A stretch of DNA of 64,000 nt from contig JABAQM010000001.1 in NCBI GenBank assembly GCA_019187105.1, positions 1,674,001 through 1,738,000 of the forward strand. Direction: 5' to 3'. This DNA is from Fimbriimonadaceae bacterium. Its GTDB lineage: Bacteria; Armatimonadota; Fimbriimonadia; Fimbriimonadales; Fimbriimonadaceae. The notes beneath the pieces are model-generated. The model worked only from the letters and a program-made list of their open reading frames with translations. It had not been told where the DNA came from and ran no database searches. Of the stretch, positions 36,931 through 51,504 are shown one piece after another (positions within the stretch are counted from its first letter, which is position 1; each line of letters starts with the position of its first letter). The position numbers were made by a program, and so were the translations under genes.

Positions 36931-38199
36931 ATGGAACCAATACGAGTACTGGCGATCGACGACAATGACGATATCCTCCGGGACTATCGTAAGACGCTAT
37001 CGCCAAAAACGCACCGTTCCGAACTTGAGGACCTCGAGGTCGAGCTCTTTGGCAACAGTGCGCCGGATCCTGGCGCAGCACAGTCCATTGATTGCGTGAT
37101 CGAAACCGCAAGTCAAGGGTTTGATGGCGTCGAACTGGTTCGCATGGCCATCAGTGAGGGCAATCCCTTTGATGTGGTCTTCGTTGACATGCGCATGCCT
37201 CCGGGTTGGGACGGACTTCGAACGATTCAGGAAATCTGGAAGCTGCACCCTGAGCAGTTCGTGGTCCTCTGCACGGCCTACTCCGACTACTCGATCGAAG
37301 AGCTCCACCACATTCTCGGGCGCAAACCAAACTTTCTGATCCTGCGGAAGCCCTTCTCACCCGACGAGATTGTTCAGATGGTGCTGTCCGTTCTCGGCCG
37401 CGAGTCGGACGACACCCGAAGACATCGGAGTCTCTCCTACGAGCTGAGTTCTGCTCTGGCCTTCGGCAATCTCCACCTGGCGTTCCAGCCGATAATCGAC
37501 CTGAAAACGATGGCGCCAAAGGGGTTCGAAGCGCTTTGCCGCTGGACCAAGAACGATGGCACGGAGGTCCCCCCCGATATCTTCATCCGGGTTGCCGAAG
37601 ACTTCGGTCTGATCAAAGATGTAGGAACCTTCGTTGCGGCGGAAGCGTGCCGATCGGCCGCCATTCTCAACACCGAGTTCGGCAACGAGCTCCTGGTGAC
37701 GATCAATGCCTCGGTCATGCAGCTCGAGCCCAATTTCCTAGGGGAAATCCTCGACATGGTGACCAAGAACAGCTTGCAGCCCGAACAAATCGGCGTCGAA
37801 GTAACCGAGAGTCGCGTGGTCCACGACGGTTCCCAATGCTTCGAAACGCTGTCCGCCTTGCAGGCAGAAGGCATCCAGATCCTCATCGACGACTTTGGGA
37901 CGGGATTCTCCTCCCTCCACACGCTGGCCCGTATGCCCTTCGACGTCATCAAGATCGATCGGTCGTTCTGCCGCCGCATGGTCACCGACCCCGCGACCGC
38001 GATCATCATGAAGTCGATCGTGCAGATGGCAGAGTCGCTCGGGCGGACATGCGTGGCAGAAGGCGTGGAGAGCGAGCGCGAAGAGGAATTGCTGCGATCC
38101 ATCGGATGCCATGCCGTTCAAGGTTTTCGCTATGCGAGGCCGATGGAGCTGCACTCGGCGCTTGAGTTTCTCAAATCCAACGAGTGTGAAGCGGCCTAA
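36931..38199 (+). CDS. Receiver-EAL c-di-GMP phosphodiesterase (response regulator)
   Basis: A 422-residue two-domain output protein. The N-terminal receiver has acidic residues in IDDND, the phosphoacceptor Asp in VVFVDMRMPPGWDG, and the conserved Thr and Lys (CTAYS, LRKPF). A linker leads to an EAL domain with FEALCRW, INASVMQLEP, VEVTESR, DDFGTGFSSL, IKIDRSF, EGVES and QGF, so the catalytic metal and base residues look intact. It should hydrolyse c-di-GMP on phosphorylation by the adjacent kinase. No GGDEF protein is in the window. Confidence 0.93.
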   Translation: MEPIRVLAIDDNDDILRDYRKTLSPKTHRSELEDLEVELFGNSAPDPGAAQSIDCVIETASQGFDGVELVRMAISEGNPFDVVFVDMRMPPGWDGLRTIQEIWKLHPEQFVVLCTAYSDYSIEELHHILGRKPNFLILRKPFSPDEIVQMVLSVLGRESDDTRRHRSLSYELSSALAFGNLHLAFQPIIDLKTMAPKGFEALCRWTKNDGTEVPPDIFIRVAEDFGLIKDVGTFVAAEACRSAAILNTEFGNELLVTINASVMQLEPNFLGEILDMVTKNSLQPEQIGVEVTESRVVHDGSQCFETLSALQAEGIQILIDDFGTGFSSLHTLARMPFDVIKIDRSFCRRMVTDPATAIIMKSIVQMAESLGRTCVAEGVESEREEELLRSIGCHAVQGFRYARPMELHSALEFLKSNECEAA

Positions 38200-38555
38200 G
38201 TCTTCGAATCCGGAACCTCTCCGTCATCGATATCGGGTTCCAGCGTAAAGTCGCGTCGCGGAGGGCGGACTCCAACGCGCAAGGCGGAAAAGAGCTTCGA
38301 GTCTCCGGCCATCTCATTCAGGCGCTGGATGATCAGGTCCTTATGCATTCGGACTTCTTGGCACCACGCCGAGCCCGAAGCAGCCACCCAGAGCGTCCCA
38401 TGGTCGAATCGGTCCGGCGTGGAATGGTCCGCCAAGAGATCGCCCACCGCTTCCCGCCATCGCCGCATCACCTGGTGTGCCCGTGCCTGTCGGACAACTT
38501 CCGGTCTCCCGATGGCTCCGTCCAAAACTTCGCTGAGTCGTTTCATCCATTCCAA
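38196..38555 (-). CDS. dciA: DUF721 protein, DciA-like replicative helicase loader
   Basis: A 119-residue protein with the DUF721 KH-like core: MRRWREAVGD, TLWVAASGSAWCQEVRMHKDLIIQRLNE and a basic or disordered tail. DciA replaces DnaC-type loaders for DnaB in many phyla. The start lies 13 bases inside recF, so both are co-expressed; their coupling is common near replication loci. Confidence 0.85.
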   Translation of the reverse strand: MEWMKRLSEVLDGAIGRPEVVRQARAHQVMRRWREAVGDLLADHSTPDRFDHGTLWVAASGSAWCQEVRMHKDLIIQRLNEMAGDSKLFSALRVGVRPPRRDFTLEPDIDDGEVPDSKT

Positions 38556-39664
38556 AGGGTGGCCGCACCCTCGCTAACACGGAATACCCGAGCCGACTCG
38601 AGCAATTCGGTACCGGCTTGTTCCGGTTCTGTGCAAGTTATCAACACTTGGCCCGATGTCTCCCGCACGAGCCTGACCAGCCGTTGTCGGCGCCCGGCAT
38701 CGAGATCCGAAAACACATCGTCAAGCAACAGAGTTGGTGGCTCACCATGGAGTTCACCCGCCACGTTGAAGACGCCGGCCTTGAGCGCCATCACTGCCGA
38801 CCGCTGCTGGCCCTGGGAACCAAACGCTCTGATGTCGACGCCCTGCACGAAAATCCTCAGGTCGTCGCGATGGGGTCCGACCGAGGTGCTTCCCCGGCGG
38901 ATATCGTTCGCCCGACCCGATTCCAGCAGGCCGAGGAGTGGTTCCTCATCCGATGCTTGAATGCCAAGTTCGATGCTCTCGTTGCCAAGATCGCGCATAA
39001 AGGCACTCACGGCGGGCGCGAGATCGGTCACGAAGGCCTGCCTGCGCCTCCGGATGTCTTCTCCGCTCTCTGCCAGGGACAATTCCCACGGCTCGAATTC
39101 GGACCCCGGCACGTTCCTTTCCTGGGCCTCTTTCAGCAGCGCGTTACGCTGCTCCAGGCTTCGACGATAAGTGGCGAATGACTTGAGATAGTTCGGGTAG
39201 TGCTGCGAAAGCTCGACGTCGAGGAAGCGGCGTCTGGCTCCTGGCTCCCCCCTCACCACCTCCAGGTCCTCCATCGAGAACGTCACGATTGGGAGCCGCC
39301 CCATGATGTCGGAGGCTCTGGCAAGGGGCTTGTCGTTGACCAAGATCCTCTTGCGGATTCCCGCCCGTAACTCGACCCGGATCGTGGTTCCCGAAGGCTG
39401 GATCGTGAGCTCGACCGTCGCATCGGCCTCGCCATTCCGGATCGCCTCGGCGTCTCTTCCTCCTCTGAGGAGCTGCCCGGTCGAAGCGAGAAAAAGGGCC
39501 TCGAGGATGGACGTCTTCCCCTGGGCATTGGCTCCGGCAATCACGTTGAGACCGGGATCGAAATCGATCGGTCCATGGCCAAGGCAGCGGAACCGATCGA
39601 ACCCCAGCCGCCCGGCATAGTGGGTGGAGCTTTCCAGTGCCTGTTTCTGTAAAGAAGAGTTAAT
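38543..39664 (-). CDS. recF: DNA replication and repair protein RecF (start codon unclear)
   Basis: SMC-like ATPase that loads RecA at gaps via RecOR. Walker A is AGANAQGKTSILEALF, signature and Walker B follow (TSVGPHRDDL, LLLDDVFSDLDAGRR). The best ATG/GTG/TTG in frame is a GTG at 39544, but it sits inside the first beta strand. The upstream codons encode HYAGRLGFDRFRCLGHGPID and FDPGLNV, clearly the RecF N-terminus. No canonical start precedes them; candidates are an ATT at 39664 with AAAGGA seven bases upstream, and a CTG at 39637. I placed the boundary at the ATT with low certainty. Confidence 0.9.
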   Translation of the reverse strand: MNSSLQKQALESSTHYAGRLGFDRFRCLGHGPIDFDPGLNVIAGANAQGKTSILEALFLASTGQLLRGGRDAEAIRNGEADATVELTIQPSGTTIRVELRAGIRKRILVNDKPLARASDIMGRLPIVTFSMEDLEVVRGEPGARRRFLDVELSQHYPNYLKSFATYRRSLEQRNALLKEAQERNVPGSEFEPWELSLAESGEDIRRRRQAFVTDLAPAVSAFMRDLGNESIELGIQASDEEPLLGLLESGRANDIRRGSTSVGPHRDDLRIFVQGVDIRAFGSQGQQRSAVMALKAGVFNVAGELHGEPPTLLLDDVFSDLDAGRRQRLVRLVRETSGQVLITCTEPEQAGTELLESARVFRVSEGAATLWNG

Positions 39665-39938
39665 GAGTTAATCCTTTGGAATTACTGTTATAGCGGCCAT
39701 TTCGGTGGATAACGGGATTCGGACTCGCCGCCGGCAGCCTGTTGCGAACCCAATCGACGCCAGGCGGGCCCGTTCTCCCGAGTGGATAACGGTGTGGAGA
39801 AAGCACGCCCAAGAGGTTAAGGAAGGGCAAGCTTTCCCCCGAAAATTCGAGGCCCTGTTTATCCCCGAGGTTTCCCATGGATGTTTCCAGCTTTTCCGCG
39901 ACCCTTCCCAATGTTAGGTGCATAATCTCGAAATCGCC
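39665..39938. other. Divergent intergenic region with DnaA-box-like sites
   Basis: Between leftward recF and the rightward acyl-CoA synthetase. On the minus strand TTATCCACC (39704-39712) and TTATCCACT (39781-39789) each match the DnaA box TTATNCACA at 8 of 9 bases; a third site TTATCCCCG (39859-39867) matches 7 of 9. An AT-rich stretch (39661-39692) adjoins. Small reading frames here overlap one another on both strands and look non-coding. This could be an origin element or DnaA-regulated promoter. Confidence 0.4.
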
Positions 39939-41654
39939 ATGAGCCTACCAATCGAAGCACGTTCCCTGGGTGAACTGTACCGGCATTCGGTTGCTCGCTA
40001 TGGCACGCGAACGGCTGCGATGTTCAAGGCAAACGGCCAGTGGCAAAAGCAGACGTATAACGAGCACGCAAGCAGCGTTCGGAACGTCGCCGCCGCCTTG
40101 GCCAGTCTCGGCTTGGAGCGAGGCGACCGGGTGGCGATCTTCGCTGAAAACTCCATTCACTGGGCCCAGGCAGAGTGGGCGTGCCAGTTACTCGGTCTCA
40201 TTCCGGTACCGATCTATCCGACCTTGCCAAGCGACCAGGCCCAATACATCGTCAACGACTCCGGCGCTAAGCTGGCGCTGGTCAGTAGCGACGAGTTGGC
40301 AAGCCGGCTGCCCGGGACGGATTGCGAGTTTCTGGACGGGCCGTCCCGGCTTGTCGATCGGCCATCGTCGACCCCAATCTCGGACGATGCTCTCGACGCC
40401 ATCAGTCAGGCCATCGCGGCCGAAGACCTTGCGACGATCATCTACACGAGCGGCACGACCGGGAATCCGAAAGGGGCGATGCTGAGCCACAAGTCCTTTG
40501 TCTCGACCTGCGAAGCCGTGCGGCAGCGGATTCCCGTCGATGAGAACGATCTCTTCTTAAGTTTCCTGCCCCTCTCCCACGTGTATGAGAGAATGGCCGG
40601 CCACGTGTTGCCGGTCGCCTTGGGCGCCACGGTTGCCTACGCCGGTTCCATCGCGACCCTTGCCAGCGACATGGTCGACGTCAAGCCCACGATCATGCTG
40701 TGTGTCCCGAGGTTCTTGGATTCGGTCCGGAGCCGAATCGTTGACAACGTCGCCCGCCAGTCTCCGATCAAGCAGCGCCTGTTCAAAGCCTGCCTGAGCC
40801 AAGGATTAACCCGCTCCAAAGGCGGCTTTGCCCCATTCGCCGGGATCTTGGACCACCTGGTGGGAGCGAAGGTGAGAGAACGAACCGGCGGACGGTTAAG
40901 ATTCTTTGCCTCGGGTGGTGCTGCTCTGCCTGGCTACGTGGCGGATTTCTACGCCGCTCTCCGGCTCACCGTCCTCCAGGGCTATGGACTCACCGAGACC
41001 TGTGGCGGCAACTGCATCAACCACCCAGACCGGGTTGACAACACCACCGTCGGAGAGCCCCTCGTACCGGCCGTCGAGATCAAAATCGCCGACGATGGCG
41101 AGATCCTGATTCGTGGAGACTGCCGGATGATCGCCTACTACAATCTTCCTGAGGAAACGGCATTGGCAATCGGTTCGGACGGCTGGTTCCACACCGGGGA
41201 CATCGGTGAAATGGTTGACGGAAAGCTCCGTATCACCGACCGGAAGAAAGATCTGCTGGTCTTGGGCAACGGCAAGAATGTAGCACCGCAGCCGATCGAG
41301 AACAAGCTACGAGAAAGCGAATGGATCGGTGAGGCTGTTCTCTTTGGGGATGGCATGGAATATGTCTGTGCGCTCGTTATCCCCGATAAGGAGCGCGTTG
41401 CGAAGTGGGCCAAGGAGGCCTCGGCTTCCGGCGGATACGAGGAGTGGGTAAACCAAGCCGAGGTAAGGCAAGCGATCAAGTCGGAAATCGACCGGATAAA
41501 CAAGGGCATCGCCGACTTCGAGAAGGTCAAGCGTCACGAGGTCGTCGCGGCTACGTTTTCGATCGAGACGGGCGAGCTCACCCCGACGTTAAAGGTCAAG
41601 CGAAAGTTTGTGAAGGAAAAGTTCGCGGACGTCATCGCCCGCATGTCGCGATAG
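39939..41654 (+). CDS. Long-chain acyl-CoA synthetase (AMP-forming)
   Basis: Activates fatty acids through acyl-AMP to acyl-CoA. The ATP motif TIIYTSGTTGNPKGAMLSH is exact, followed by the linker LRITDRKKDLLVLGNGKNVAPQ and catalytic Lys region typical of long-chain synthetases. Length (571) is normal; a GTG seven codons earlier is an alternative start. It precedes the first nucleotide cyclase gene by 23 bases, so the two may share a transcript and the synthetase could supply a lipid signal; that link is inference. Confidence 0.93.
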   Translation: MSLPIEARSLGELYRHSVARYGTRTAAMFKANGQWQKQTYNEHASSVRNVAAALASLGLERGDRVAIFAENSIHWAQAEWACQLLGLIPVPIYPTLPSDQAQYIVNDSGAKLALVSSDELASRLPGTDCEFLDGPSRLVDRPSSTPISDDALDAISQAIAAEDLATIIYTSGTTGNPKGAMLSHKSFVSTCEAVRQRIPVDENDLFLSFLPLSHVYERMAGHVLPVALGATVAYAGSIATLASDMVDVKPTIMLCVPRFLDSVRSRIVDNVARQSPIKQRLFKACLSQGLTRSKGGFAPFAGILDHLVGAKVRERTGGRLRFFASGGAALPGYVADFYAALRLTVLQGYGLTETCGGNCINHPDRVDNTTVGEPLVPAVEIKIADDGEILIRGDCRMIAYYNLPEETALAIGSDGWFHTGDIGEMVDGKLRITDRKKDLLVLGNGKNVAPQPIENKLRESEWIGEAVLFGDGMEYVCALVIPDKERVAKWAKEASASGGYEEWVNQAEVRQAIKSEIDRINKGIADFEKVKRHEVVAATFSIETGELTPTLKVKRKFVKEKFADVIARMSR

Positions 41655-41677: not shown

Positions 41678-44245
41678 TTGCCCGAATTCGTCGAGACGAA
41701 CGCTGCATTCTTGCTTACTGACATCGTTGGGAGCACGCGGCTCCATCATCTCCATCCCCAAGCGATGTTGGATGCGATCGCTCGACACAACAACATCGTC
41801 GAAAGTGTGGTCTCGCAGCACGGGGGCGAGCTCTTCCGCCGACGCGGCGAGGGTGATTCGACTTTCAGCGTTTTCGCTCAGCCCTCCAGCGCCGTCCTGG
41901 CTGCGATCGACCTGCAGCGGCAGCTCGCGGGTTTCACGGTCGTCGAAGGCGTGGAGCTCCGTACTCGGGTAGGGATCCACTCTGGCGACGCCGTCCTTTT
42001 CGACGGAGACTATCAGGGCACGACGGTGAATCTCTGCGCTCGGATACGCTCCGCGGCGAATGGCGGCCAAATTGTAACGACCGAGCCGGTGCGCGCAAGT
42101 GCCAAGGGCGTCGTTTTCCGCGATCTCGGTGTTTATCGGCTCGCCGACGTTGCCGACGAGATCAAGCTCTATCAGCCCCTCGCCGAAGGCATCGACCGCG
42201 AATTCCCACCCCTTCGCGTGCCCTACAGTGGCAATTTGCCCACCCCAATCTCGCCGTTTATCGGAAGAGGGCCCGAGGTCGAGGCGATCAAACAGCTTCT
42301 CCAGGATAACCGTCTCGTAACCCTGACCGGGCTTGGGGGCTTCGGCAAGACCAGACTGGCAATCGAGGCGACGACCCAACTAGCCCACCGCTTTTCGGGC
42401 GGGACCTGGTTCGTCCCGGTGGAACGCGGCGCGACGACCGAATCGCTAATCGGCAGTTTCCTTCAGCTGGTGAGCCGGTCACCCGACCGCAACCAAATCC
42501 TGCAGCTCCACCAGCTTCGCGATGATCGATCCTATTTCGTGGTTCTCGACAACGCCGAAGTTGCGCTCGAACAGGCCAAGGAGTTCGCCAAGGAGGTCCT
42601 AACTCAACTCCCGAACATTCGCGTGCTCGCCACCTCCCGAGAGCTGCTTCATGTCAGTGGTGAAGCGGTCTATCCAGTTCCTCCGATGAGCTTGCCAAGC
42701 GAATCGAACCAGGGGGATGCCATGGCGCTGCTCGTTTCGCACCTCCGCCGGTCTCTGGCAAGGTCGAACCTCGGCAGGATGGACTTTGACAGGCTGTCGG
42801 AGGTTTGCCGATTGACGGAGGGGGTACCCCTTTGCCTGGAGCTCATTGCGCCGCACTATCGCTTCCTGAGCGAGACCCAGGTCCGCGAACGCTATGCCAC
42901 GTTGCTACGGCAGGAGAATGCCGCGGTCGAACCCAAGCATCGTTCCTTGGAGACGGCCATCCGGTCCAGCCTCGACATGCTGGCCGAGCGGGACCGGTAC
43001 GTCCTGCAGGGCTTGGCGGTTTTTGCCGGCGGTTTCACCCTCGACGCTGTCGAGGAGGTCGTAGCTGACCGGGTCTTGGAGAGATCTGACATCCTGCCTG
43101 CTCTGGGCTGCTTGGTTGATGCCTCCCTTTTGCAGCGGATTGCGGGTGAAGACCTGAGATTCAACCTGCTCGAATCCGTCCGTACGCATGCGCTCGCCGA
43201 GCTTGAGCCCACTCGGAGGGCTGAGCTCGAAACGCGCCATGCAAATTGGATTGCCCACCTGGTTTCCGATCGTGTTCAACGGATCTCCTCGCCGGAATCT
43301 GCGGCGGTGCTCAGCGAGCTCCTGACCGAGGAAAAGAATATCGACCTAGCCTTGGACAACCTCCTCCGGGAACCATGCCAGCCTCTAGCCGGAGAGCTTG
43401 CCGCCGACCTTGCCCTCTGGTGGTACCGATCGAATCCAAGGGTGGGGCGGTCGAGGCTCGAGGAAGTGCTCGCCCATGCCGAACGCTTCGAAGAGGCCCT
43501 CGTTCAGAAACTTTCGAATCGGCTGGGTGTCATCGCTTATGAGATGGAAGATATCGCCGTCTCCCAGGAGTGGCTGCGTGTCGCATCCGAGATCGCCAAA
43601 CGACGCGGAGACGAGACCGCCCTTCACGCCATTGAGATGAACTTGGGGCTGACCCACCAGGCGCTTGAGGACTATGGCGAGGCGATTCGGCTCATCAGGG
43701 CTGCGAAATCCTATTTCGATTGTCACGGTCCAAAGCCGTACGCCGTCAAGGCGACGGTCTCGCTTGGCAATTCGTTGGTGCGAGGGGGGCATCCCGACGA
43801 AGCGACGGAGGTCATTACGCAAGGATTGGCTTTGGCCGAGGAAATCGACGCCCGTGAGTCGCAGACGACGAGCCGCATCAACCTTGCCCAACTGGCGCTC
43901 CTCAAGCAGCCCGCGGACTATGAAGAGGCCCGGAAGAACTTGATGTGGACCTTGGATCACGGTCTTCACGCGGATCCCAACAACCTCGCCTTTACGCTAA
44001 TCGCGCTCGCTCTGTGCGTTCACGACGCGGGCAGCCAGAGATTGGCGGTGAATCTGATCGGCGCTGGTCGGGCCATGCATGAGTTCCACGGCACCCGGTG
44101 GTCCGAATTCGAGGTGAAGACCTACTCCCCACTTTGCGATCTGATTCTGGAATCCGCAGGTGAGGATGGCGATCGCTGGATCAGCGAAGGCGCAGCAATG
44201 GACGTCGAAAACCTTAGAACGGCACTGGCGGACTTGTACCGGTGA
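41678..44245 (+). CDS. Class III nucleotide cyclase-STAND ATPase-TPR protein (copy A)
   Basis: A 855-residue signalling protein. The N-terminal cyclase domain (about 8-165) keeps both metal aspartates (Asp15 in LLTDIVGST, Asp60 in RRGEGDSTF), the Asp111 base-contact residue (FDGDYQG) and transition-state Asn118 and Arg122 (VNLCARI); the usual adenine-contact Lys is Arg56. A STAND/NB-ARC ATPase follows (P-loop TGLGGFGKTR at 217, VVLDNAEV, TSREL, GVPLCLELIAP), then about 300 residues of helical TPR-like repeats. No DNA-binding domain. The TTG start has GGGGAGG five bases upstream. Copy B lies downstream; both look catalytically intact. Confidence 0.92.
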   Translation: MPEFVETNAAFLLTDIVGSTRLHHLHPQAMLDAIARHNNIVESVVSQHGGELFRRRGEGDSTFSVFAQPSSAVLAAIDLQRQLAGFTVVEGVELRTRVGIHSGDAVLFDGDYQGTTVNLCARIRSAANGGQIVTTEPVRASAKGVVFRDLGVYRLADVADEIKLYQPLAEGIDREFPPLRVPYSGNLPTPISPFIGRGPEVEAIKQLLQDNRLVTLTGLGGFGKTRLAIEATTQLAHRFSGGTWFVPVERGATTESLIGSFLQLVSRSPDRNQILQLHQLRDDRSYFVVLDNAEVALEQAKEFAKEVLTQLPNIRVLATSRELLHVSGEAVYPVPPMSLPSESNQGDAMALLVSHLRRSLARSNLGRMDFDRLSEVCRLTEGVPLCLELIAPHYRFLSETQVRERYATLLRQENAAVEPKHRSLETAIRSSLDMLAERDRYVLQGLAVFAGGFTLDAVEEVVADRVLERSDILPALGCLVDASLLQRIAGEDLRFNLLESVRTHALAELEPTRRAELETRHANWIAHLVSDRVQRISSPESAAVLSELLTEEKNIDLALDNLLREPCQPLAGELAADLALWWYRSNPRVGRSRLEEVLAHAERFEEALVQKLSNRLGVIAYEMEDIAVSQEWLRVASEIAKRRGDETALHAIEMNLGLTHQALEDYGEAIRLIRAAKSYFDCHGPKPYAVKATVSLGNSLVRGGHPDEATEVITQGLALAEEIDARESQTTSRINLAQLALLKQPADYEEARKNLMWTLDHGLHADPNNLAFTLIALALCVHDAGSQRLAVNLIGAGRAMHEFHGTRWSEFEVKTYSPLCDLILESAGEDGDRWISEGAAMDVENLRTALADLYR

Positions 44246-44277
44246 TCTTGCCGTGCTTTCATTAAGCGTCGTTGCGG

Positions 44278-44327
44278 TGTGATGTCCGTCACATATCCCC
44301 ACCACGTTCACTCATTTACTTGTCCTC
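44278..44327 (+). promoter_or_regulatory. CRP-type operator with a class II promoter layout
   Basis: TGTGATGTCCGTCACA (44278-44293) is the exact CRP/FNR-superfamily palindrome TGTGA-N6-TCACA. A TTTACT -10-like hexamer lies at 44315-44320; a start site near 44327 would put the operator centre at -41.5, the class II activation position. It lies between the first cyclase gene and the first small exported protein, so cAMP made by the cyclases could control this promoter. The regulator itself is not in the window. Confidence 0.6.
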
Positions 44328-44344
44328 GGAGGTTAGGAATATCA

Positions 44345-44827
44345 ATGAAACACAGTAACTGGCTTGTGGCCACCTTTGCCTGTTCCATCGTGGGGACCGT
44401 CGCGTTCGTGCTGCCGAGGGCAATGGCAGGCGAATCATCCGGCCCAGCCGATTCGATAGCTGGTGCCAGCATTGTGGCAAGTGGCGGCCGAGGAGCCGGA
44501 AGCGAACCGATCATGCTGGTGGCGACCAAGGAAACCGCCTCGTACCCGACCGGAGGCAGCTCCTCGCCCGCGACATTTGAAGCGGTCTACAGCGACAGCA
44601 TGACCGTCGAAGTCAAAGCGCTTGCTCCGATCGGTGGTTCGGGTACGGCGCCAACTCTCACCGTGTTGGCGAGCGCCAAGAATGCCTCCGATGACTACAA
44701 GCAGACCAATGTCAGCATCAGCGTCCAAGAAGGGGCCGCCGCCGGATGGGTGTCCGAAGTGGTTTTCCTTTTCAAGGAATCTGGGGTGATCAAGAAGATC
44801 TACTCGACCAAAATCGCAACGAACTAA
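44345..44827 (+). CDS. Small exported protein 1 of the cyclase cassette
   Basis: A 160-residue protein with a Sec signal peptide (residues 1-30, cleavage near RAMA-GE). The mature part is rich in S, T, G and A and short beta strands. It carries GAGSEPIML, the motif shared with the two later small proteins (NVGTDPIML). No known domain. The ATG has TAGGA seven bases upstream; a longer frame starting inside the CRP-type site is less likely. It lies between the two cyclase genes. Confidence 0.8.
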   Translation: MKHSNWLVATFACSIVGTVAFVLPRAMAGESSGPADSIAGASIVASGGRGAGSEPIMLVATKETASYPTGGSSSPATFEAVYSDSMTVEVKALAPIGGSGTAPTLTVLASAKNASDDYKQTNVSISVQEGAAAGWVSEVVFLFKESGVIKKIYSTKIATN

Positions 44828-44833
44828 CTGCAC

Positions 44834-44855
44834 CGCCCCGATTGGATCCGGGGCG
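44834..44855 (+). terminator. GC-rich hairpin after small protein 1
   Basis: A perfect 7-bp stem CGCCCCG/CGGGGCG with an 8-base loop lies six bases after the stop codon. There is no T-run, so it may be a pausing or partial termination element, or protect the 3' end of the upstream message, rather than a full terminator. Confidence 0.45.
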
Positions 44856-44866
44856 CCCGGCAGTCA

Positions 44867-44910
44867 CCTCGCCTTGTTGCGCCCAGTGGTGGGGTCACAA
44901 TAAGGCGAGG
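44867..44910 (+). promoter_or_regulatory. RNA hairpin covering the ribosome binding site of cyclase B
   Basis: CCTCGCCTTGTTG (44867-44879) pairs with CAATAAGGCGAGG (44898-44910) over 13 bp with a single G-U pair. The 3' arm contains the GAGG ribosome binding site located six bases before the cyclase B ATG at 44917. When folded it should block translation, so it may be a conditional switch or a translational brake. Confidence 0.55.
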
Positions 44911-44916
44911 CGAACC

Positions 44917-47460
44917 ATGTCCGTTCTTGAGCAGACTGCGGCATTTTTGCTGACCGATCTGGTCGGTAGCACGCGACTGCATCAAGACTATCCCGGCGAG
45001 ATGGTCGTTGCCTTGCAGCGCCATGCCGAGATCGTCTCCAGAGCCGTAGCCGCTCAGAATGGCGAGTTGTTCAAGCGGCGCGGAGAAGGCGATTCGACGT
45101 TCTCGGTCTTTGCTACAGCGCAAGATGCCGTAAATGCGGCCGTGGCGATTCAGCGCGGCTTGAAGTCGGTCGAAGTTGCCCCACAGGTTCCACTCCGAGC
45201 GCGTATCGGTATTCACTTCGGCACCGCGCTGCTCTTCGATTCTGATTACCAGGGAGCGGTCGTCAATCTCTGCGCACGAATCCGGTCTGTGGCCCACGGA
45301 GGGCAGATCCTGATCTCCGAGGCGGCAAGACAGCTGCTGTCAGGCACCGAGGTCAAAGACCTGGGGTACGTGCGGCTTGCCGATGTGCACGAGCGGCAGC
45401 ACGTCTTCCAGGTTTGTGCCGATGGATTGGAGTCGGAGTTTCCAGGGCTGCGCTCTCTGGAGTTAGGTGGACTGCCGAGGCCCGTAACGCCGTTTGTGGG
45501 TCGCGTTTCCGAGACCGCCGATCTGATCGAGTTGGTTCGTGGCCACGTCTTGGTGACCGTCACCGGCCTCGGCGGGATCGGCAAGACAAGGATTGCGATC
45601 GAGGTCGCGTCGAGACTGGCCCCTCAGTTTCCCCATGGAGTTCACTTCGCTAGGGTCGAAGTAGGGGTCAACGAATCGGACCTTGCCTCCACCCTCTTCG
45701 CCGAGATCAGCAAGGATAGACCCGATCGCCCGATTCAGGCCTTGGCCGCGGTCATGAACCGGGAACCCCACCTCATCGTCCTCGACAACGCCGAAGTGGC
45801 CCTTCCCTCGGTTAAATCGCTCCTCAAAGAGGCAGCTTCTCACGATGGCGCCGGCCGCTGGATCGTCACATCGCGAGAAGTCCTCAATCTGCCGGGTGAG
45901 GCCAGCTTTGCCATCGGTCCGATGGGTCTCCCTGATGGCACTGTGGCGGGTGATGCCGTTGCCCTCCTCATGGAAGGCATTAGGAGGGTGGCTCCACGTG
46001 CCTCCGTTTCGAATGAAGACCTTGCCGAAATCTGCCGAGAGGCAAACGGTATTCCGCTGTGTCTGGACTTGATCGCTCCCCACTTTCGGAGTCTTTCGAG
46101 CCACCAGATCCTCCAGCGCTTTGAATCGCTGATCAACAGGGACCGCGACGAGATGGGTCCGAGACACAGCAGCATCCAGGCTGCCCTCGAGAGCAGCTTT
46201 CAAGTGCTGTCTGCGGTTCAACGCGACGTCTTTAGCCGGATCGCGATCTTTGCCGGCTCGTTCTCGCCAGAGGCGGCGGAAGCCGTGGCTGCCTTTGGTG
46301 CAGTGGAGCGGGGACAGGTGCTGCCCGCCCTCCAGGAATTGGTCGATGGCTCCTTGCTTAACGTCGATCTGGAGACCGGCCGATTTCGCTTGCTGGACCT
46401 GGTAAGGCACTTTGGAATGCGAACCGAAGGCTTTGCCGAGGCCCGAGACGGGCTCTGGGACCGACTGCAAGGCTGGCTGGAGACCCATATCGCCGATCAC
46501 TGTGGAAGGCTCTCAGGCCCCGAAGGAAGCTTCCATACGGCAAGCATCGCCAGTGAAATCGACAACATCCGGTGCCTCCTGGATGCGCGCTTTGCCGCCG
46601 GGAAAGTGCCCGTTCAATTACTGGCCGACATGGCCATGTGGTGGTACCGGGAGAACCCCCACCAGGGATGGAAGTACCTCCAGCAAGCGGCTGTGGCCAT
46701 GGATGAGGTCATCACCGAGTCCTCATGCGTGCTTCTCAATCGCGCGGGCGTTGTCGGTTACGCCCTGAGTCACCCCCGCGAGGGTCGGGACCTGCTGGAG
46801 CGCGCACTGCAGCAAGCTGAACAGCTTGGGGACGAATCCCGGGCGAACAGCATATTGGCGAACATTGCGCTGACTTACCTCCAGGAGGGTAGACCGATTG
46901 AAGCGCTGCCGCTGCTGGAACGGGCGATCGCCTTTTACAAGGGTAGTGGTGACGCCTCAACCTCCATCCGAGTTGCCGTCAATTTGGGCCGGGCACTGCT
47001 GGAGATGGAGGATCACGAGCGGGCTGCCACCGTTCTAACATCGGCGGCCCATGACGCCGTCGGTTCTGGACTCGTCGAAACTGCGGCACTTGCCAGCCTG
47101 AACCTGGGCCTCATTTCGCTCCTAAAGTGGCCGGCTGAGCCCGAAAGGGCCATTGCTTACTTCCTCGAGTGTATGGAAGAGCCAGGACGACTATCCCTGG
47201 CAAACCGTGCCTACGCGGCAATTGGACTTGCGCTGGCACTGAATCGTCGAGGCACCAGCCAGCTGGCGATGCAACTGATTCAGTATGCCGAGCAGGTGAG
47301 AGCCGAGAACGGCATTCCCCCGATGCCCCACGAGTCCAGGCACTTCGGCGACGAACTGTCGATTCTAAGGGGTCGTTTGGAAAATGTGCATGACCTGACC
47401 GTTCGACCGACCCTCACGGATGTCCTGGATGCGGTTAGACTGCAAGGAATCGCATCATGA
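44917..47460 (+). CDS. Class III nucleotide cyclase-STAND ATPase-TPR protein (copy B)
   Basis: An 847-residue paralogue of copy A with the same domain order. The cyclase keeps Asp14 and Asp59, Asp110, Asn117 and Arg121, and again has Arg (55) at the adenine-contact Lys position. The ATPase P-loop is TGLGGIGKTR at 217, with IVLDNAEV, TSREVL and GIPLCLDLIAPH. A helical repeat tail follows. I trimmed 57 codons of the open frame upstream because the family start MSVLEQTAAFLLTDLVGST and the GAGG site decide the ATG. Its stop overlaps the next gene. Confidence 0.92.
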   Translation: MSVLEQTAAFLLTDLVGSTRLHQDYPGEMVVALQRHAEIVSRAVAAQNGELFKRRGEGDSTFSVFATAQDAVNAAVAIQRGLKSVEVAPQVPLRARIGIHFGTALLFDSDYQGAVVNLCARIRSVAHGGQILISEAARQLLSGTEVKDLGYVRLADVHERQHVFQVCADGLESEFPGLRSLELGGLPRPVTPFVGRVSETADLIELVRGHVLVTVTGLGGIGKTRIAIEVASRLAPQFPHGVHFARVEVGVNESDLASTLFAEISKDRPDRPIQALAAVMNREPHLIVLDNAEVALPSVKSLLKEAASHDGAGRWIVTSREVLNLPGEASFAIGPMGLPDGTVAGDAVALLMEGIRRVAPRASVSNEDLAEICREANGIPLCLDLIAPHFRSLSSHQILQRFESLINRDRDEMGPRHSSIQAALESSFQVLSAVQRDVFSRIAIFAGSFSPEAAEAVAAFGAVERGQVLPALQELVDGSLLNVDLETGRFRLLDLVRHFGMRTEGFAEARDGLWDRLQGWLETHIADHCGRLSGPEGSFHTASIASEIDNIRCLLDARFAAGKVPVQLLADMAMWWYRENPHQGWKYLQQAAVAMDEVITESSCVLLNRAGVVGYALSHPREGRDLLERALQQAEQLGDESRANSILANIALTYLQEGRPIEALPLLERAIAFYKGSGDASTSIRVAVNLGRALLEMEDHERAATVLTSAAHDAVGSGLVETAALASLNLGLISLLKWPAEPERAIAYFLECMEEPGRLSLANRAYAAIGLALALNRRGTSQLAMQLIQYAEQVRAENGIPPMPHESRHFGDELSILRGRLENVHDLTVRPTLTDVLDAVRLQGIAS

Positions 47461-47942
47461 ACCGTAAGTTAGGATGGAAACTGTCGCTGCATGCCGCAAC
47501 AATGGTCGCAATGCTACTGGTCCTCGGAGCCTGTGGCCAAGAAGCGCCACCGCCAAGCGCCGCCGCCAAAGGCGACACGACAATTGTTTGGGGCAACCTC
47601 AATGTTGGGACCGACCCCATCATGCTGACCGTCCTCAAGGGAGCCGCGAGTGGGGCCGATTCAATGGCGACCGGTTGCATCGCCTCGCTCATGTACCCAT
47701 CTTCCGGCGCCGTAGGCACCCCCTCGATCTATGCGCTTTCGCCCGGGGCCGATGCCAGCAAGTACTCGGTCACGCTCGCGCCGGTTTTGGCATCGGGGTC
47801 CGGAATATCCATCTATTCCCAACACGTTGTCGTTAAACGAACCTCTGCCGCAACGGCAAAGGAAATCGTCTTCGTGCAAGTGTCGGTGACGATCGCCACA
47901 ACGGTCCATAATCGGTACTTCCAAGTCGAGTTCAATCCATGA
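47457..47942 (+). CDS. Small lipoprotein 2 of the cyclase cassette
   Basis: A 161-residue predicted lipoprotein: signal segment then lipobox LVLGAC (Cys26), a short Ala/Pro linker, and a beta-rich domain. NLNVGTDPIML, ASKYSVTL and HVVVKR are shared with protein 3, and the PIML motif with protein 1. It overlaps cyclase B by four bases (ATGA), so it is made together with it. Function unknown; a surface or periplasmic sensor or ligand of the cyclase cassette is a guess. Confidence 0.8.
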   Translation: MNRKLGWKLSLHAATMVAMLLVLGACGQEAPPPSAAAKGDTTIVWGNLNVGTDPIMLTVLKGAASGADSMATGCIASLMYPSSGAVGTPSIYALSPGADASKYSVTLAPVLASGSGISIYSQHVVVKRTSAATAKEIVFVQVSVTIATTVHNRYFQVEFNP

Positions 47943-48415
47943 GGAAGCAAGCCGACATCGAAAATGTCATTCGGATCACCTTGACCGCGGGGATGGGTTT
48001 CATCGCCGGCCTCTTGTTGGGAAAGAACCGACTGCCGTCCCCGCTCAGGAAGACGAATGTGGGTACCGATCCGATCATGCTGAACATGATCAAGGATGAG
48101 GTTAGGGCAGCCGATGCTACGAACGGCGGAGCTTTTGCCGTTTACTTCTCCCAGCCGACAACCGTCCTGCGTGCGGTCGAGGTCTCGATCGACGGCACGT
48201 CAAACGCCAACAACCCTGCAAGCAAGTTTGAGGCGACGGTAGTCGTGGCCGCCAACCCGGTCAACAATCCGCTTAGGCTATGCCGTCACGTGGTGGTCAA
48301 GCTCAGGGCCGGTGAAACCGTAACCGCCGACACAACCGTCCACGGCACCATCACGGTCAAGGAAGGCGCCCGGTCGTTAAGGACCGAGGCCATCGAGGTC
48401 ACCTTTAGAGCCTAG
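47939..48415 (+). CDS. Small membrane-anchored protein 3 of the cyclase cassette
   Basis: A 158-residue protein with one N-terminal transmembrane helix (about 10-28), probably an uncleaved anchor, and a beta-rich domain. KTNVGTDPIML, ASKFEATV and HVVVKL align with protein 2 in the same order and spacing, so the two are paralogues with different anchors. It overlaps protein 2 by ATGA and ends in a CTAG overlap with the convergent mannosidase gene. Confidence 0.8.
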   Translation: MRKQADIENVIRITLTAGMGFIAGLLLGKNRLPSPLRKTNVGTDPIMLNMIKDEVRAADATNGGAFAVYFSQPTTVLRAVEVSIDGTSNANNPASKFEATVVVAANPVNNPLRLCRHVVVKLRAGETVTADTTVHGTITVKEGARSLRTEAIEVTFRA

Positions 48416-51400
48416 CTCTCGACCAGTACCGTTAGGATCTCGAACGGCTTGTACTCGAGCATCACCAAGTTGTCGATCACCTCGAGCTCGCTGATTGGGG
48501 ATTCCTCCAAGTCCGCGAGCCAGGCGCGCCGGATCCGCCTTGCCGAAGAAAGCTCCGCCGTCCCACGGGCATTGTGGCATTCGTAGAGCCGGACCACCAG
48601 CTGGTCCGAATCCTCCGCCTTTTTGACCGACTCGACCACCAGGTTCCGATCCTCGCACGAAAACAGCGGAGGCAGAGCGGTCAAGTCGCTGCCTGAGACG
48701 TCATCCAACAGCGCGTATCGCAGCGGAGAGTTCACCGAATAGGCCGCTGCCACGACTCCTCCGTGGTAGTACTGGTCGTAATGGGGCAGCAGGACGTAGG
48801 TGAATCGATGGAGGCCCATGTCGCATTGCGGGTCGGGCGCTTTCGGACTGCGCAGCAGGGACAGCCGCATGACGTTCCCGCGAATGTCGTAGCCGTACTT
48901 GCCTACGTTGATTAGCGCAACTCCATGGCCGCCCTCGCTGATGTCCGCCCATTTTTGTGCGCAGGTCTCGAACATCGCCATTTCCCACGAGGTGTTGGCA
49001 TGTGTCGGACGCTCCACGTTCCCGAACTGGATCTCGTGCGTCGCCCGTGTGGCGTTGACGTTAACGGGAAAGGCGACCTTCAGCATCGTGTCGGATTCAT
49101 GCCAGTCGATTTCCGTATCGAAACGGATTCCAGGAGTCGGTCCTAAGCTGATGCGCTGGCGGATGCGGCTCTTGCCGAACGTCTTGACGATCTCCGCCGC
49201 CACCCGAACCGGCCCGCGCTCCACGATTTCGAAGCTGTCGCTCTTGAGCAGTTCACGAACCGTCTCTTGAGCGTAGATATCGACGTCCCACGCCGACCAG
49301 AACAGGGGGTGGTCATCGAGCAACTGGAAGACGTTGCCAAGTTTCCCCGGTGCGATGAACTCCATCGGGCGGTCATCCAGGCTCGTAATGCTCGTTATAT
49401 TGCCGTTGCTGTCAAAGCGGACGGAAAACTGGTCGTTCTCAAGTCGCCTGGTACCGGCCTTGGCGCGAAAACGCGCATTGGGCGGCTGATTGCCGAGATC
49501 CGCGACCATCACCGTTCCCAGAGCTTCGCGGGGGATGGGGAAGATGATCTTTCGCTCATCGAATTCCTCGACCAGCTGTACGGGGAGGTGGTCGCCTCCA
49601 ATCGACAGCGAGGTCGGCACCTCGTCTTCCTCCCAGGGAATCGAGCCCTGGGACCGTTCGGTTGCGTTCTGGAACAGCGCGACGGGCCGCACCCTGCCCT
49701 CGAGGTGGAAATGCTTTCCAAGATTAATCAGCGCGCGCTGAACGATTCCCTCGCCGATGGCTTCGATTCTCTGGTAATCCAACACGCTGTCTTCGTAGAC
49801 CTCGCGCACGGATGAGCCCGGGATGATGTCGTGGAATTGGTTGAGCAGAACCAGCTTCCACGCCTCCTCCAGCTCGGCGGACGGATACGTTTTGGGATAG
49901 TCGTCGCGGAAGCAGGATAAGTACTCGGCGTCCCTGAGCAGGAACTCCGAAACCCGGTTGCTCAGCTTGTTGGCCGCTTGGCTGGTGTACGTGCCGCGGT
50001 GGTACTCGAAGTAAAGCTCGCCTGCCCAGGTTGCGAGATCCGCACTCTTGTTGCGGGCCTCGCGGAAGAAGTCCAGGGCCTTGCGTTTCGCCCTGATTTC
50101 CGGCAGGGCTCCGCAGGATCGCGCCCGACGGAGAAACTCGATGTGGCGTTCGGTCGGGCCGCCTCCACCGTCACCGTATCCGAAGCAGTACAGGCTGTGG
50201 TCGCATCGGGCATGGTCCTTGTGGTTCTTGACCGAGAACAGCAGCTCCTTCGGCTCACAGTTGCCGCAGTAGGTGTTTGCAGGCGAAAAGTGGGTCCAAA
50301 CCCGGCTCCCGTCAATGCCCTGCCACCAGAACGTGTTGTGGGGAAAAACGTTGAACTGGTTCCAGCTGATTTTCTGGGTGAAGAACGCCTTGATTCCGAA
50401 CTTGCGCAGAATCTGGGGCAGCGCCGCCGAATAGCCGAACACATCGGGCAACCACATGTCCTCCGTCTCGACTCCGAGCTTGTCCCGGAAGTACCGCTTG
50501 CCGTAGAGGAACTGACGCACCAAGGATTCGCCGCCCGTCAGGTTGCAGTCGGCTTCCACCCACATCGAGCCAAGAACCTCCCACTGCCCGGTTCCGATCG
50601 CGTCCTTTACCTGCGCGAGGAGCTTGGGATGCTCCTGCTCGAGCCACTCGTACTGCGACGCCTGGCTATGGACGAAGACGTACTCTGGGTACCTCTCGAT
50701 GAGGCGCAGCTGGTTGGCGGTGGTATGCGCCATCTTCAAGTGCGTAATTCTCAAGGGCCAGAGCCAGGCCGTATCGAGGTGGGCATGGCCGACCGCTGTC
50801 ATGGTATGGGCCGGTCCCTCGCCAAGGGATTGAAGGGCGTCGCGAAGCACCTTGCGGCATCTGGCGATCGACTCCTTTCCCTCGGTCGCCCAGAGGTTGG
50901 CCGCATCGTTCAGCCCTCGCATCAGTAGGGCATAGTTGGGGCTGTCGGCGGACTGGGCTTCCATCAGGTTGAAGGCAAAATCAAAGTCATAGGTCAGTGC
51001 CTGCATCTCACCATCGAGAAGCAGGAGCTCGGCCTTCTGCATCGTTTCCACAAGGTCCTCCCGCGGCAGCTCAGCGCGGTGAACGCGGCACTGTGGATTG
51101 GTCGTGTAGACCTGAATCAGGCGGTCGATCTTCTCGCCACCCTTTGCGGTCCAGAGCAAGGGCATGATCGCATGGGGCCCGTCGATGCCGATCTCAGGGA
51201 CGTTGTCCTTCCAGACCGTGCGCTCGCCACCGACCTCGGCGGTCAGCCCGACTTGCCCGTTCGACCATCCCTTCGGTACAGCGCCCGAAACCCTGAACCA
51301 GACTTCGCGGTAGGCCGGACCATAGCGAAATCCCGATTCGACCGGAGACCACGGACCCTTTGACTTGGCTTCTCTTTCGTTCTGATGAGGTTCCGGGCAG

Positions 51401-51504
51401 AACTCGACGGAGAGAGGCGACCGATCGAGAATGATTCCTTCCTTGAGCTCGTGCTCTAGCAATTGGCGCAGCCGTCCGGCGGTAACTGTCGGGTGTTTTA
51501 GCAT
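48412..51504 (-). CDS. Alpha-mannosidase, GH38
   Basis: Hydrolyses alpha-mannosides, probably in the cytoplasm since no signal peptide is seen. The 1030-residue protein has the GH38 barrel with HAHLDTAWLWPLR (zinc ligands His and Asp) and WLPDVFGYSAALPQIL, whose Asp is the expected nucleophile; a further His ligand lies downstream. The middle helical bundle and C-terminal beta domains follow. I trimmed about 40 upstream codons lacking family similarity. It is a single-gene unit. Confidence 0.92.
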   Translation of the reverse strand: MLKHPTVTAGRLRQLLEHELKEGIILDRSPLSVEFCPEPHQNEREAKSKGPWSPVESGFRYGPAYREVWFRVSGAVPKGWSNGQVGLTAEVGGERTVWKDNVPEIGIDGPHAIMPLLWTAKGGEKIDRLIQVYTTNPQCRVHRAELPREDLVETMQKAELLLLDGEMQALTYDFDFAFNLMEAQSADSPNYALLMRGLNDAANLWATEGKESIARCRKVLRDALQSLGEGPAHTMTAVGHAHLDTAWLWPLRITHLKMAHTTANQLRLIERYPEYVFVHSQASQYEWLEQEHPKLLAQVKDAIGTGQWEVLGSMWVEADCNLTGGESLVRQFLYGKRYFRDKLGVETEDMWLPDVFGYSAALPQILRKFGIKAFFTQKISWNQFNVFPHNTFWWQGIDGSRVWTHFSPANTYCGNCEPKELLFSVKNHKDHARCDHSLYCFGYGDGGGGPTERHIEFLRRARSCGALPEIRAKRKALDFFREARNKSADLATWAGELYFEYHRGTYTSQAANKLSNRVSEFLLRDAEYLSCFRDDYPKTYPSAELEEAWKLVLLNQFHDIIPGSSVREVYEDSVLDYQRIEAIGEGIVQRALINLGKHFHLEGRVRPVALFQNATERSQGSIPWEEDEVPTSLSIGGDHLPVQLVEEFDERKIIFPIPREALGTVMVADLGNQPPNARFRAKAGTRRLENDQFSVRFDSNGNITSITSLDDRPMEFIAPGKLGNVFQLLDDHPLFWSAWDVDIYAQETVRELLKSDSFEIVERGPVRVAAEIVKTFGKSRIRQRISLGPTPGIRFDTEIDWHESDTMLKVAFPVNVNATRATHEIQFGNVERPTHANTSWEMAMFETCAQKWADISEGGHGVALINVGKYGYDIRGNVMRLSLLRSPKAPDPQCDMGLHRFTYVLLPHYDQYYHGGVVAAAYSVNSPLRYALLDDVSGSDLTALPPLFSCEDRNLVVESVKKAEDSDQLVVRLYECHNARGTAELSSARRIRRAWLADLEESPISELEVIDNLVMLEYKPFEILTVLVES

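Follow-up and report, generated by a model that had tools for sequence, protein, structure and literature searches.

Cyclase-STAND-TPR genes paired with small proteins that share an N-terminal motif in Armatimonadota

The five-gene cassette and its proteins

The window analysed here is a 64,000-nucleotide stretch (contig JABAQM010000001.1, positions 1,674,001 to 1,738,000) of the nearly complete 3.3 Mb genome of a Fimbriimonadaceae bacterium in the phylum Armatimonadota. Our subject is a cassette of five genes within it, in which two large paralogous proteins, A and B, each joining a class III nucleotide cyclase to a STAND-type ATPase and a TPR region, are interleaved with three small proteins, s1, s2 and s3, that share a short N-terminal motif. 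Small proteins with related motifs stand directly behind cyclase-STAND genes elsewhere in the phylum, and this recurrent pairing is the main result reported below. In window coordinates, the cassette consists of the following genes.

41678..44245, forward strand: A, class III cyclase, NB-ARC/STAND ATPase and TPR, 855 amino acids, TTG start
44345..44827, forward strand: s1, 160 amino acids, likely Sec signal peptide, motif AGSEPIMLVA (GSEPIML codons at 44498..44518, forward strand)
44917..47460, forward strand: B, paralogue of A with cyclase, STAND and TPR, 847 amino acids
47457..47942, forward strand: s2, 161 amino acids, likely lipoprotein (LGAC), motif VGTDPIMLTV (GTDPIML codons at 47607..47627, forward strand)
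47939..48415, forward strand: s3, 158 amino acids, one N-terminal transmembrane segment of uncertain topology, motif VGTDPIMLNM (GTDPIML codons at 48062..48082, forward strand)

An earlier note on this DNA had described the order A-s1-B-s2-s3 on a single strand with two 4-base overlaps, and both the list of open reading frames (ORFs) and a gene caller based on codon usage, with long ORFs as its training set, bear this out, the caller picking all five genes (scores 147, 22, 126, 17 and 27). Both overlaps are ATGA, between B and s2 at 47457-47460 and between s2 and s3 at 47939-47942. A GGGGAGG ribosome-binding site lies ahead of the TTG start of A, and s1 most likely begins at ATG 44345, giving its 160 residues, rather than at GTG 44279. 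The cassette looks like a duplicated unit of cyclase plus small gene, A-s1 and B-s2-s3, because A and B are each other's nearest relatives in two trees of 127 and 154 family members; over their full length they are 38-39% identical.

Pfam assigns Guanylate_cyc, NB-ARC and TPR_12 to A and B, in agreement with the earlier description of proteins of about 850 residues that lack a DNA-binding tail. The NB-ARC domain (PF00931) of A scores 24.9 bits against a cut-off of 23.5, which places A among the STAND NTPases, and that of B scores 17 bits, under the cut-off, with GLGGIGKTR retained. Pfam gives no helix-turn-helix family, GerE included, for either protein at E<=1, so they do not classify as LuxR-type regulators. 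The metal-binding aspartates D15 and D60, together with D111, N118, R122 and the Walker lysine K224, are kept in both, and these active-site residues mark both as class III nucleotide cyclases in which the adenine-contact lysine is replaced by arginine (R56 in A; B aligned against Ma1120), as had been noted before. We considered whether this substitution marks a degenerate cyclase and rejected the idea: arginine occupies the position in 33 of the 41 GEGD-type family cyclases and lysine in 75 of the 81 KxxGD-type ones, so the change is an ordinary trait of a subfamily and no sign of decay. It co-occurs with a GEGD hairpin two residues longer, and a residue other than lysine is tolerated at this position in LuxR-type cyclase regulators.

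The host genome contains 15 Guanylate_cyc matches, A and B counted, and in several of these a STAND module is attached; it also encodes three CRP-like proteins that bind cyclic nucleoside monophosphates (cNMPs), one of which adjoins another cyclase. That cyclase and CRP-like gene (L005, L388; G000:C1:1661317-1662438) lie about 11.6 kb ahead of the window start and form a candidate cognate pair.

The three small proteins are weakly related, with mutual identities of 18-29% and shuffle Z-scores of 5.5 for s1/s2, 8.1 for s2/s3 and 1.6 for s1/s3. All three carry G[ST][DE]PIML beyond an N-terminal export or anchor segment, and across the 3.3 Mb genome the corresponding codons turn up exactly three times, always within s1-s3, with no occurrence on the other strand and none of the reversed pattern. 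Searches of Pfam, NCBIfam, PHROGs and PADLOC (and of PDB sequences for s2) returned no useful family match, and none of the three matched a cyclic-nucleotide-binding domain or an effector in the models of Pfam and PADLOC. A sequence search of s2 in 60 relatives gave nothing above chance-level matches outside its own genome; its kinship with distant partners is visible through position and motif only.

Export signals, here and below, were judged by inspection. The likely signal peptide of s1 would be cleaved near AMA/GES, s2 has the LGAC lipobox of a likely lipoprotein, and s3 has an N-terminal transmembrane segment followed by more positive charge, which leaves its topology ambiguous. The earlier view that all three are exported stands as likely for s1 and s2 and as ambiguous for s3. 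AlphaFold models built from three sequences are of low confidence (mean predicted local distance difference test, pLDDT, 49 for s2 and 47 for s3) and are all-beta across the C-terminal two thirds. In Foldseek the s2 model finds mostly Ig-like sandwiches as its best matches, at E of about 0.01-0.1 and with low TM-scores, so that an Ig-like fold is a lead and not evidence.

Recurrence of the pairing in Armatimonadota

Cyclase-STAND genes are common throughout the phylum. When larger stretches surrounding about 150 such genes were retrieved and their genes called with a codon model, small unrelated-looking proteins directly downstream on the same strand were found to bear an N-terminal signature, approximately G/S/D/E-[YF/T]-[V/D/I]-P-I, of which PIML is a part. 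The signature lies behind cyclase-STAND genes at about 15 loci in six families (f1, f5, f10, f12, f13 and f30), and the earlier note's proposal that cyclase-STAND proteins go with a family of small proteins sharing a motif is borne out, with recurrence in other genomes. We define a partner as a small same-strand ORF that immediately follows a cyclase-STAND gene and has [YFLTS][VIDE]PI in its first 120 residues, a definition that s1, s2 and s3 satisfy. The motifs found are listed here by locus, with the export class where judged; "cytosolic-looking" denotes proteins with no signal peptide.

L070, two tandem genes: QGFDPIIAMD; TGFDPIIVMG...TGFDPIIGMN; signal peptide
L075, sister locus of L077: SGYDPIVGVQ; cytosolic-looking
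L076: AGFVPIVIGP
L077: SGYVPIVGVE; cytosolic-looking
L109: AQLIPITSDK; N-terminal transmembrane segment
L110: PGYVPIIVEP; cytosolic-looking
L122: PDYVPITKMK; signal peptide
L157, two tandem genes: GSLIPITKVS, GSLIPLTKVN; N-terminal transmembrane segment in the first
L174, two tandem genes: PEYIPIITPP, PEYIPIIDPG; cytosolic-looking
L185, two proteins with three modules: SDYVPIG three times in two genes, one protein having two motif-plus-module repeats; signal peptide in the first gene
L186: PEYIPITTNK; cytosolic-looking
L200: IVYVPIGIGL; cytosolic-looking
L365, three tandem genes: SKFDPIP once per gene; cytosolic-looking

A signal peptide is also seen at L086, and L113 is cytosolic-looking. Whether or not a signal is present, the motif is found close to the start of the mature chain. 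Since about half of the motif proteins have no signal peptide, the description of the small proteins as an exported family fails as a general one. Tandem copies, three in the window itself, recur at several of these loci, and the active-site and Walker residues are retained in the motif-associated cyclase-STAND members. The confinement of the motif to its cassette is likewise found in a second genome (G150, 5 Mb), where the DYVPIG codon pattern occurs exactly three times, all at the cyclase cassette locus, and never in ten other genomes tested; in both genomes these counts, three of three each, were made once the motif was fixed.

Three loci with other arrangements may be set beside these. At L113 an ORF about 14 bp past the cyclase-STAND gene has a possible long His/Cys-rich N-terminal segment (MANHHQEQHIHYHYHCSCGSGCQCGKGG...) ahead of TIQPIVGV. 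At L101 (G027) three tandem paralogous small lipoproteins of about 128-145 amino acids follow the cyclase-STAND gene without a PI motif and are possibly a parallel kind of partner. At L168 (G249) two small neighbours upstream of the cyclase-STAND gene have DEPILF(S/A)M near the N-terminus, which resembles the motif and falls outside the set used.

The association was measured with simple patterns and controls. The core form [YF][VID]PI occurs in an ORF within 1.5 kb downstream of 12 of 144 cyclase-STAND genes, against 2 of 307 other long genes and none of 147 upstream segments; the comparison with other long genes gives p = 4e-5 (lower for other core forms), and these p-values are guides because the patterns were picked after examples had been seen. 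This count leaves out s1-s3, whose motifs fall outside the core pattern. Two of the twelve matches, L098 and L166, are probably chance, since neither fits a narrower form (10/144 downstream, 0/307 beside other long genes, 0/147 upstream) and the L098 ORF lies 0.8 kb off. The broad form [YFLTS][VIDE]PI gives 19/144 downstream, 9/307 for other long genes and 6/147 upstream, at least one of the upstream matches being the small gene of the next cassette (s1, upstream of B). Within the first 70 residues, Y[VI]PI is found in 6 of 70 downstream small proteins and in 1 of 564 other small proteins, and that sole control match is the L185 protein, itself downstream of a cyclase-STAND gene. These patterns replaced a de novo expectation-maximisation motif search of width 9, which was discarded as overfitted (likelihood 173 against at most 164 in controls, with a different motif).

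On the family tree the partner label is clustered, with 11 changes against 15.4 in shuffles and none of 500 shuffles as low. At least seven label changes are needed on well-supported branches of the 154-gene tree that includes L365; the partner was acquired or lost several times. A single-clade origin, which a 127-gene tree had suggested by placing the strong loci in one 44-gene set, was withdrawn when the 154-gene tree scattered them. The small proteins drift apart more quickly than the cyclases do, yet keep the motif: between the sister loci L075 and L077, identity is 56% for the cyclases and 29% for the small proteins.

Around the cassette, two further genes adjoin or overlap it, both identified by sequence inspection.

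39918..41654, forward strand: acyl-CoA ligase-like gene, ending 23 bp ahead of A
48412-51504, opposite strand: alpha-mannosidase-like gene, overlapping s3 tail to tail

The acyl-CoA ligase-like gene may share a transcript with A and is probably outside the module, as no such gene was noticed beside other cassettes. A scan of the cassette for promoters and terminators found no forward-strand promoter and nothing above shuffle expectation. Farther upstream, window positions 38196-39544 contain, on the minus strand and again by inspection, a small DUF721/DciA-like gene and a RecF-like gene that overlap.

Possible roles of the small proteins

If the partner is dedicated, this motif-marked, fast-evolving protein encoded next door would be a concrete and testable ligand or regulator for a set of cyclase-STAND proteins. 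Starting from what is observed (the pairing, its motif and recurrence, the tandem copies, the faster divergence and the intact active sites), we give an even chance to the reading that these loci encode an undescribed two-part Armatimonadota signalling module, whose cyclase-STAND-TPR switch is committed to beta-domain partners that diversify rapidly, often occur in tandem and attach through a conserved N-terminal [YF][VDI]PI docking motif. We are more tentative about the role of the small protein itself as a dedicated partner or ligand that docks on the cyclase-STAND protein through the motif.

In such a module, each cyclase-STAND-TPR protein would have its own small partner, presumably co-transcribed with it and consisting of a variable domain, probably an Ig-like beta-sandwich, behind an N-terminal [YF/T]-[V/D/I]-P-I docking motif. 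A constant motif would need a constant dock, and the cyclase-STAND protein is the only constant neighbour; we therefore infer that it is the docking target, with recognition and physical binding probably falling to the STAND/TPR half and the fast-evolving domain being the piece that varies, for sensing or for presentation. Class III cyclases need two domains in contact to work, as dimers, and STAND proteins switch through ligand-driven oligomerisation, so a bound or released partner could switch on synthesis: its binding or displacement would lead to STAND oligomerisation and join two cyclase domains. The paired domains would make a cyclic nucleotide that may be read elsewhere, for instance by CRP-like proteins, if the signal indeed runs in this direction. 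For exported partners the sensed form might, more speculatively, be the unexported precursor, in which case the pair would monitor secretion.

Several observations weigh against this reading. About 87-90% of cyclase-STAND genes have no motif-bearing neighbour, which means that the family at large can fold and work without one. A named-genome scan of 75 cyclase-STAND genes, mainly from Chloroflexota, Eremiobacterota, Actinomycetota, Ignavibacteria and mycobacteria, found no motif partner downstream, only one match in an unrelated membrane-like ORF; in contig scans, B alone retrieved no relative, and a four-sequence alignment retrieved 80 loci, mostly from other phyla. Co-occurrence beside homologous cyclases, on which the earlier note had staked its proposal, therefore holds in the cassette-bearing lineages and fails for most of the family, where the partner is absent. 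The modelled structures of the small proteins all fall short of useful confidence (pLDDT 47-49). The export signals of s1 and s2 would put them across the membrane from a cytosolic cyclase, unless a precursor is sensed, and the placing of the motif before repeated modules at L185 and twice, 25 residues apart, at L070 fits other roles as well, such as assembly or processing.

In the main rival, which we consider possible but doubtful, the small proteins would stand at the output end of the circuit, as envelope or surface beta-domains of adhesin or pilin type whose production or assembly the cyclase governs through its cyclic nucleotide, with the motif serving as an assembly or anchoring strand. 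In the earlier note's hypothesis, cAMP from the cyclases would control the synthesis of the small proteins. The export signals of s1 and s2, the likely signal peptides of the L070 and L185 forms, the repeated motif and module in one L185 protein, and the low-confidence all-beta models with their Ig-like Foldseek matches would all suit such a role, but the half of the motif proteins without a signal peptide would not, and the translational overlap of s2 with B sits more easily with a stoichiometric partner than with an output under regulation.

We regard as unlikely a conflict or defence module, in which the cyclase-STAND protein would sense an invader and the variable small proteins would be toxins, immunity proteins or decoys. 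Fast divergence and tandem copies would be in keeping with such a system, and conflict systems are known to include STAND proteins combined with cNMP cyclases or caspases (PMC7159879). Beside two motif-type cassettes in genome G013 lie HG...YLSGCNTG-like proteins (L086:2039-3700 and L076:5972-6745, with YLSGCLTG in L076) with a caspase-like His/Cys look, which would favour this explanation, but the two tested have no Pfam match. The small proteins have no PADLOC match either, B matches a defence cyclase at the level of the cyclase only, and inspection recognised no mobile-element or defence genes around the cassette, whose neighbours are housekeeping-like.

Still less probable is a role as precursors, from which processed peptides or modified products would be made; the motif would then be their leader or cleavage site, and the cyclase-STAND protein a regulator of the sort found at TOMM kinase/cyclase or peptide-modification cyclase loci. 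A conserved N-terminal motif before a variable remainder would fit, as would weak NCBIfam matches of A and B to TIGR03903, TIGR04510, FxSxx_TPR and HaaT, all from peptide-modification contexts, but these scores are far below their cut-offs (36/706, 32/400, 52/300 and 62/1125 bits), neither the cassette nor its neighbourhood yielded a recognisable modification enzyme, and the bodies are beta-rich domains of 100-250 amino acids and not short cores. Least probable of all is chance placement or hitchhiking of small secreted genes behind cyclase genes, with the motif a common beta-strand start. In its favour, the motif is a short one whose definition came after examples had been seen, about 90% of cyclase-STAND genes do not have it beside them, and Ig-like domains often have a proline close to their first strand, but the counts against both controls, the 6/70 against 1/564 among small proteins, the confinement to the cassette in two genomes and the clustering on the tree all argue against it.

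Comparison with known systems

One of the closest known kinds is that of the LuxR-type cyclase-ATPase-HTH (helix-turn-helix) regulators such as mycobacterial Rv0386, which share with A and B a class III cyclase, a STAND-type ATPase and a repeat region and differ from them in carrying the HTH. Mycobacterial relatives of A and B were retrieved, and small partner genes are absent beside those examined.

Pycsar systems (PMC11224242) resemble the cassette in that a nucleotide cyclase shares an operon with a small second protein, and B matches the PADLOC PycC model weakly (E 6e-4), over its cyclase domain only. The base-selecting residues reported for PycC are Y50/D94/R97 in BcPycC (PMC11224242). 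Their effector has a cNMP-binding domain, however, whereas s1-s3 have none in Pfam or PADLOC, and A and B carry STAND and TPR regions in addition. Cyclases also occur in conflict systems (PMC7159879, PMC8195603). In the cNMP-cyclase/caspase systems with STAND or EACC1/VMAP components (Kaur et al. 2020, PMC7159879), a cyclase signal generator likewise stands beside ATPase switches and a small, partly membrane-associated component. EACC1, VMAP, MoxR and vWA were not recognised in the cassette, though no EACC1 profile was run; in the two-gene EACC1 systems the 5' gene has the EACC1 transmembrane domain, and here the order is reversed, with the cyclase gene first. The excerpt of PMC7159879 describes neither the motif nor a beta-rich partner.

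The last comparison is with peptide-precursor loci (PMC2887384, PMC8939145). The alignment of TIGR03903, the TOMM kinase/cyclase fusion model, to B spans the junction of cyclase and ATPase, and TIGR03903 and the peptide-modification cyclase model TIGR04510 are annotated in small-peptide loci, but scores of 36/705.75 and 32/400 bits, 5-8% of the cut-offs, do not make A and B cyclases of those peptide systems, which differ also in that no modification enzymes were recognised here and the partners are the size of folded domains. No description of the cyclase-STAND/small-protein pairing or of the motif was found in the open-licence full-text literature. What the Armatimonadota loci add to these known arrangements is a wider signature containing PIML, carried by small proteins behind cyclase-STAND genes.

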